Part shown: positions 291 to 507 of the stretch, one piece after another
How the letters are laid out: every line of letters starts with the position of its first letter
Position numbering within the stretch: position 1 is the first letter of the stretch
Source of the DNA: Campylobacterales bacterium
GTDB taxonomy: Bacteria > Campylobacterota > Campylobacteria > Campylobacterales > Sulfurimonadaceae
Direction of reading: 5' to 3'
Assembly: GCA_026390165.1 (NCBI GenBank)
Contig: JAPLGM010000012.1
Location: 1 to 64,000, forward strand
DNA: 64,000 bases
Notes under the pieces: model-generated
Seen by the model: the letters and a program-made list of their open reading frames with translations, nothing else
Databases searched by the model: none
Told to the model about the DNA's origin: nothing
Program-made: the position numbers and the translations under genes

Positions 291-353
291 TTAATTCAAT
301 ACTGGTACGAATACCAACAAGATTAAAAATGCTATCAAAATAAAACGTGACAA
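291..353 (-). CDS. Small hydrophobic peptide (20 aa), candidate membrane-acting microprotein
   Basis: The minus strand reads TTG TCA CGT TTT... for 20 codons to TAA, giving a peptide beginning MSRFILIAFL and ending VFVPVLN: one Arg, otherwise almost entirely aliphatic/aromatic, long enough for a single membrane span. The TTG is preceded by a near-perfect Shine-Dalgarno AAAGGAGG with 8 bases between. A terminator follows at once, so the gene stands alone. The Shine-Dalgarno lies inside a hairpin (355-387) and another terminator-like hairpin precedes it. This architecture resembles type I toxin mRNAs (the AapA family is known in Campylobacterota) or small membrane peptides, but I see no homology, and function is inference. 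It is not followed by kdpA, which argues against KdpF. Confidence 0.5.
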   Translation of the reverse strand: MSRFILIAFLILLVFVPVLN

Positions 354-354
354 T

Positions 355-387
355 ATGGGTTCCTCCTTTCAAAGGATACCCACCCAT
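355..387 (-). promoter_or_regulatory. Hairpin masking the Shine-Dalgarno of the small peptide
   Basis: On the minus strand an outer stem ATGGGT/ACCCAT (387-382 with 360-355) encloses an inner stem TCCTT/AAGGA (376-372 with 368-364, loop TGA). The AAAGGAGG ribosome site (369-362) is partly paired in the inner stem. Translation would need opening of this fold, as in RNA thermometers or type I toxin mRNAs. Seen by hand pairing only; no energy calculation was possible. Confidence 0.5.
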
Positions 388-408
388 CCTACCTGCTAAA
401 AATTAGCC

Positions 409-440
409 AAAAAAAAAGGAGGGGTATTTCTACCACCTCC
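409..440 (-). terminator. Intrinsic terminator or attenuator in the leader of the small ORF
   Basis: Minus strand: GGAGG-(U)-GGUA pairs with UACC-CCUCC around a GAAA loop (440-418), followed by nine consecutive U (417-409). This is a textbook intrinsic terminator, placed between the putative promoter at about 500 and the peptide start at 353. It could end an independent RNA of about 80 nt or act as an attenuator. Confidence 0.65.
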
Positions 441-497
441 CTTTCTCTTCTATCCGTTAATCAGACGGAAAGAGGATCTCATATTGTTCACGTCGAA

Positions 498-507
498 ATT
501 GTACCAT
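498..507 (-). promoter_or_regulatory. Extended -10 promoter for the leader RNA or small ORF
   Basis: The minus strand reads TATGGTACAAT, an extended -10 (TACAAT at 503-498 preceded by TGG). The same TGGTACAAT string precedes the toxin-antitoxin genes at 62.4 kb, and a closely similar TGGTATAAT precedes the response regulator at 59.1 kb. No good -35 is visible, which is usual for Campylobacterota. A transcript would begin near 491. Confidence 0.45.

Follow-up and report, generated by a model that had tools for sequence, protein, structure and literature searches.

The window analysed here, 64,000 nt in length, is the beginning of contig C22 of its genome, and at 291–507 it holds a reading frame for a very short hydrophobic peptide behind a leader with a strong terminator. 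The locus raises the question of what such a peptide does and how it is controlled. A type I toxin, a peptide controlled by an RNA thermometer and a microprotein regulated by a riboswitch had been put forward in the original prediction. The TTG-started open reading frame (ORF), the Shine-Dalgarno (SD) sequence, the nine-T run and the TG-extended -10 element named there were all recovered, and all lie on the minus strand (Table 1). The entire module occupies that strand, in the order promoter, leader, T9, hairpin, G-rich stretch, SD, ORF, 3′ hairpin and T8. From the comparison of its copies, we consider it probable that this is a toxin-antitoxin (TA) module with a tandem, same-strand RNA antitoxin, joining a type I mechanism to a type III layout. 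The arrangement looks like a previously undescribed layout for RNA-controlled TA systems.

Layout of the locus and its copies

Table 1. Positions of the module elements in the window.
Feature	Position	Strand	Basis
-10 of the leader promoter, TACAAT (498–503), TG-extended (TGGTACAAT)	498–506	−	sequence
Predicted RNA start	near 491	−	sequence
Leader RNA, proposed antitoxin, about 83 nt if the T-run is its end	409–491	−	conserved promoter and terminator
Interaction 1, antisense segment; partner is the SD and start region	467–491	−	own-copy pairing, 65 copies
Hairpin 1; loop CTGATTA (458–464) partners the 3′ hairpin loop	453–469	−	loop-loop covariation
Linker (interaction 3), complement of the pre-SD segment in most copies; weak in the window copy	440–452	−	covariation
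Intrinsic terminator, GC-rich hairpin and exactly nine T (409–417), between leader and toxin	409–441	−	T9 conservation
Post-terminator hairpin, stem GCTAA/TTAGC; the toxin mRNA may begin here	395–407	−	stem kept via base changes
Conserved G-rich motif GGTAGGATGGGTGGGTA	377–393	−	alignment of copies
Shine-Dalgarno AAAGGAGG	362–369	−	sequence
Interaction 1, target (SD, spacer, TTG start)	347–369	−	pairing with leader 5′ end
TTG-started ORF, 20-aa hydrophobic peptide MSRFILIAFLILLVFVPVLN, proposed toxin	291–353	−	coding signature, 47 copies
TGATAGC; partner is GCTGTCA (257–263)	331–337	−	both sides changed in relatives
ORF-internal hairpin GGTATTCGTACC	304–315	−	stem variants in relatives
3′ hairpin; loop TAATCA (271–276) partners the hairpin 1 loop	264–284	−	terminator scan, loop-loop covariation
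GCTGTCA (257–263), then T8 (249–256); probable toxin mRNA end in the window copy	249–263	−	sequence

The RNA of the locus folded at -82.1 kcal/mol, compared with -57.3 ± 5.2 kcal/mol for shuffled sequences (z = -4.75), and a search of the window against Rfam 15 at the gathering threshold gave 0 matches. In the alignment of relatives, the post-terminator stem is kept as GCCAA/TTGGC or GCCGA/TCGGC, the ORF-internal stem occurs as GGTA/TACC, GGTG/CACC and GGCG/CGCC, and the pairing TGATAGC/GCTGTCA has changed on both sides (for example GGATAGT/ACTATCC in copy L014). The hairpin closed by ATGGGT/ACCCAT, previously thought to enclose the SD, exists in the window copy (382–387/355–360) without being conserved among the aligned relatives; ATGGGT is part of the constant G-rich motif, and ACCCAT belongs to a variable stretch, the partner of the leader 5′ end. 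A terminator immediately after the stop codon had also been claimed. A hairpin is present there, but the consensus scan calls it a terminator on the plus strand only; on the toxin strand, T8 comes after the second pairing, TGATAGC/GCTGTCA, and is not kept in the aligned relatives. The G-rich motif was seen in all copies, between the post-terminator hairpin and the SD. A G-quadruplex at this motif would be plausible for many copies, but others contain just two G-runs, and it is not claimed.

According to a BLAST search with the module, its own genome has four copies: the window copy, a complete copy on C11, one on C14 lacking the SD and start region, and a leader without a toxin on C12. Copies of the module are dispersed, and in this genome their flanks are partly duplicated along with them. 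With a covariance model of the leader (R1), copies were detected in 14 of the 41 genomes of the genus and in 69 of the 228 genomes of the family, and sequence inspection placed R1 copies in a further three families of the same order (f2, f7 and f11). Loci of the window's genus have identical named records from Sulfuricurvum, and loci of genus g16 have them from Sulfurimonas. With these copy counts, the observation is beyond chance. About 90 copies, from Sulfuricurvum, Sulfurimonas and other Campylobacterales, were read; 89 were extracted, 73 had a recognisable peptide and 65 were non-redundant. Wide pattern scans gave several matches outside Campylobacterota, the viral ones being due to chance except for copies on two IMG/VR contigs (L238 and L243). 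L013, L016 and L020, which come from three genomes of the genus, share a similar element, TGTCGGTAAACTTTTGATAATTTGACAAGGGCGC, in the upstream flank, possibly a sign of a mobile or cassette context. The module is apparently a member of a large, so far undescribed family; no description of it was found among open-access papers.

Plasmids and prophages also carry the module; no mobile context came to light for the window copy itself. A complete copy (L248, peptide MSHLLMVFLVLMVLAPALH), missed by annotation, runs across the record start of pSULKU04, a 3,421-bp plasmid of Sulfuricurvum kujiense DSM 16994 that has three annotated genes and is typed as mobilizable. Blastn of one Sulfurimonas module against plasmids and phages gave no match, nor did tblastn of a class I peptide against plasmids. 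The order promoter, leader, T9, G-rich stretch, GGAG, ORF and 3′ hairpin recurs in a second class of toxin, represented in C. jejuni and C. coli by MELFNLFIAVIAVVITLFREEIRKIFFKPKK. This class II module sits on conjugative plasmids of the two species, between trbF/virB8 and trbL and on the opposite strand, and 30 plasmid records match it, 18 of them over at least 80%. Some plasmids, such as CP132134, cover only 69% of it. Class II relatives were found in family f2, in Helicobacter prophages and on one plasmid of C. fetus. The copies on C. jejuni/C. coli plasmids (L261, L262, L264 and L265) and on the C. fetus plasmid (L263) are mostly unannotated, and those of f2 genome G409 (L252) and Helicobacter prophage BK070149 (L266) adjoin phage tail genes.

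The peptide, the promoter and the terminator

The short hydrophobic ORF is genuinely coding. Over the last 15 codons of 47 distinct main-class copies, the mean number of differences was 5.0, 1.6 and 5.8 at first, second and third codon positions, and pN/pS was 0.38 in the peptide frame versus 0.52 and 1.61 in the shifted frames. L, V, I, M and F replaced one another, whereas a Pro close to the end was retained. The 65 copies start with TTG (45), ATG (15) or GTG (5), and ORF length ranges across copies from about 18 to 26 aa. Peptides of further classes, in modules of identical layout, end in ...FAPMLR, ...FWFPTPLY, ...GYFTKLF and ...RLY. Scans of five representative peptides against Pfam and NCBIfam gave nothing significant, such short peptides giving these scans little power. 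In a divergent subclass of the same genus (L039, L040 and L050; peptide MDKLILALLLMCIFAPMLR), the hairpin 1 loop apparently pairs with the segment right after the terminator (CATACGGT/ACCGTATG).

The peptide is probably the toxin of the module. The earlier suggestion of a type I toxin-like hydrophobic peptide whose ribosome site is hidden in the mRNA is well supported, as the peptide is conserved, its start is predicted to be covered, and the module is multicopy and plasmid-borne. Alternatively, the product could be a regulated small membrane protein, that is, a beneficial peptide whose antisense-like leader senses a condition. Many small membrane proteins are regulators, and toxicity of the peptide is a proposal; however, the patchy, multicopy, plasmid- and prophage-borne spread, and the presence of several unrelated-looking hydrophobic peptides behind one RNA device, fit toxins better, making a beneficial peptide quite unlikely.

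A -10 element of at least 5/6 was found ahead of the leader in 64 of the 65 copies, with the TG extension in 55, and none of the 65 has a -10 of at least 5/6 between the terminator and the SD, where a toxin-specific promoter would lie. Because of this distribution, the toxin mRNA most likely arises by read-through of the terminator. The T-run is exactly nine in 64 of the 65 copies; for comparison, the 64-kb window contains 38, 10 and 1 T or A runs of 7, 8 and 9. Searches with the toxin part alone, in the same genus and in Sulfurimonas, found no intact toxin without a leader. All 13 copies found in the genus lay at loci already found by the leader model. In Sulfurimonas, the 19 intact copies with upstream sequence, found without the leader model, all had T9 and a leader (19/19), the remaining hits being one copy at a contig edge and four partial or chance matches.

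The leader itself consists of hairpin 1, linker and terminator as one unit, without tandem repeats. Leaders lacking a toxin exist (L004, L056, L098, L103 and others) and are possibly anti-addiction RNAs or decaying remnants. Solo leaders were also seen at L012 1388–1490, L066 1408–1488 and L055 1173–1272, and some are in tandem, directly upstream of a complete module. In AapA/IsoA, the antisense RNA is encoded opposite the gene. No excess of -10 elements was found on the opposite strand (47 of 65 copies versus 53.7 ± 2.9 in shuffles), which argues against an IsoA-like RNA there. We propose that the antisense RNA is the leader with the U9 terminator that the original prediction had itself described, upstream and on the same strand.

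Predicted pairing between the leader and the proposed toxin mRNA

Three stretches of the leader are complementary to the toxin mRNA of the same copy, and all three covary copy by copy. Interaction 1 joins the leader 5′ end to the SD and start codon. Among the 65 copies, own partners paired at -21.1 kcal/mol versus -11.5 kcal/mol for exchanged partners, and 0/10000 permutations reached the observed mean, near-identical copies having been removed from this and the other permutation sets and the remaining kinship among copies being uncorrected. The own partner was the best of 65 in 39 copies, and the duplex of the window copy has -23.9 kcal/mol. For interactions 2 and 3 the test segments were refined after a first look, since the first, wider ones took in the GC-rich terminator, and their signals were weak (permutations as good: 474/10000 and 18/10000). 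In the refined segments, interaction 2, between the loops of hairpin 1 and the 3′ hairpin, scored 13.39 for own and 10.66 for exchanged partners, the best of 20,000 permutations reaching 11.91; the loop pairs include TGATTA/TAATCA, TGACTA/TAGTCA, TGATGA/TCATCA, TTACTA/TAGTAA and the self-complementary TAGCTA. Interaction 3, between the linker that separates hairpin 1 from the terminator and the pre-SD segment, scored 16.56 versus 10.61 in the refined segments (0/20,000 permutations). Crossed controls for interactions 2 and 3 were not significant. In two Campylobacter plasmid lineages with modules about 91% identical, the leader and the pre-SD target have changed jointly (CCTGTTTATTTGGTTT with GAAACCAAATAAGTAGG versus CCTGTTTATAATGTGTTT with GAAACACTTTATTTTACAGG).

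On the transcribed strand, G-U pairs exceeded A-C mismatches (51:29 and 28:7; 37 versus 13 copies, p = 0.0009), as selection acting on RNA, and not on DNA repeats, would predict. A mobile repeat or cassette at the level of DNA, with inverted repeats that merely mimic RNA pairing, would agree with the dispersed copies and the partly duplicated flanks in the window's genome, but it does not account for this strand-specific excess or for the conserved promoter, terminator and reading frame, and we regard it as very improbable. We give hardly any weight to a riboswitch or RNA thermometer controlling a microprotein. The window copy does have a local SD hairpin (TCCTTT/AAAGGA) and an upstream terminator; however, the hairpin 1 loop, the linker and the SD surroundings vary freely yet jointly with their partners, the bases around the SD being rewritten copy by copy with the leader, the ATGGGT/ACCCAT stem is not kept among relatives, and no Rfam family matches the window. 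These two options of the original prediction are not supported.

The two complete copies of the window's genome self-pair at -26.4 and -19.2 and cross-pair poorly, at -12.4 and -13.4. The solo leader on C12 fits best (-23.6) the start region of L015, from another genome of the genus, and not the copies of its own genome. Since the codes have diverged within one genome, action in trans without cross-silencing is the easiest reading. Because the same complementarity also forms in cis, trans action of the leader is something that we infer. The mean unpaired probability of the start region was predicted to be 0.25 with the leader in cis, 0.39 without the leader and 0.25 with the terminated leader in trans.

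The main rival explanation is a lock that works in cis only. The leader would then be a 5′ UTR covering its own start region and never acting in trans, the terminator would merely lower expression, and release of the peptide would require processing or a structural switch. Interactions 1 and 3 do nest perfectly in cis, and predicted start accessibility is lower in the full-length RNA. However, such a lock has no need of an invariant T9 or of a free-standing promoter-leader-terminator unit, nor does it require matched codes that diverge between the copies of one genome, and solo leaders exist. We judge a cis-only lock to be unlikely.

Proposed mechanism and comparison with known systems

With a tandem RNA antitoxin, the module could work as follows. 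Most transcripts would end at the T9 terminator, freeing the leader as the antitoxin RNA, and rare read-through would yield the toxin mRNA. On this longer RNA, the SD and start codon would be covered in cis by the leader folding back, and the mRNA would be silent from birth. Once its leader part has been cleaved away, the mRNA would be translatable unless a free leader pairs with it in trans; the hairpin right after the T-run may shield the 5′ end of this processed mRNA. If the locus were lost and the short RNA decayed first, the peptide would be made and would damage the inner membrane. The copy-specific pairing code would prevent cross-silencing between copies.

A broader reading can be offered tentatively, with somewhat less than even confidence. 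The modules may form a distinct, phylum-wide RNA TA system in which the promoter and the nine-T terminator give both a free, copy-specific antitoxin and a self-locked read-through mRNA. The nine-U junction and its hairpin would set the toxin:antitoxin ratio, acting as a site of programmed read-through or processing, the three-point code would be a recognition system evolving between rival plasmids, prophages and host copies, and the solo leaders would be anti-addiction RNAs.

If true, this would be a new gene order for RNA-controlled TA systems, in which a single strand carries an antisense antitoxin, a terminator and the toxin in tandem, an order that escapes annotation pipelines and searches for opposite-strand antitoxins. 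The family offers about 65 matched RNA lock-and-key pairs, a natural library for the divergence of RNA recognition codes. The modules are largely unannotated on Campylobacterota plasmids, including conjugative ones of C. jejuni and C. coli, and may matter for plasmid stability. The cultured type strain Sulfuricurvum kujiense, which has a copy on a 3.4-kb plasmid, makes the system directly testable.

In gene order, the family resembles type III systems. In toxI/toxN, a promoter, the antitoxin RNA, a Rho-independent terminator and the toxin gene follow one another on one strand; about 90% of transcripts stop at the terminator between antitoxin RNA and toxin, and the toxin is made by read-through (PMC4147584). 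The window family has the same order of antitoxin RNA, terminator and toxin on one strand. However, ToxI is a repeat RNA bound to the toxin protein, whereas the leader in the window is repeat-free and antisense to the mRNA, and the type III toxin is an RNase, whereas the window product is a hydrophobic peptide of about 20 aa and not of endoribonuclease size.

In mechanism, the family would be closer to type I. The proposed antitoxin is complementary to the toxin mRNA at three covarying sites, and the toxin candidate is short, hydrophobic and coding. In AapA/IsoA of Helicobacter pylori, the full-length mRNA is locked by a long-distance 5′-3′ interaction that hides the SD and is undone by 3′ trimming, and IsoA comes from the opposite strand (PMC6733600); AapA1 is a 30-aa peptide (PMC8309996). 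The window family likewise has a short membrane peptide, is multicopy in Campylobacterota and has a predicted sequestered SD (0.25 with versus 0.39 without the leader), but its lock is an upstream same-strand leader, and no opposite-strand promoter excess is seen. The likeness of the window peptide to Ibs is physicochemical only. In E. coli, Sib is encoded opposite ibs. Ibs is a very hydrophobic 19-aa peptide, and its antitoxin uses two target-recognition domains on the mRNA (PMC8309996). As in TisB/IstR-1, ShoB/OhsC, Zor/Orz and DinQ/AgrB, the antitoxin RNA would lie beside, not opposite, a short hydrophobic toxin gene. The antitoxins of these four systems, like known type I antitoxins not encoded opposite the toxin in general, are transcribed divergently and do not overlap the translation start, leaving the start site uncovered (PMC4147584). 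Unlike them, the window family is tandem and on the same strand, with the start region covered.
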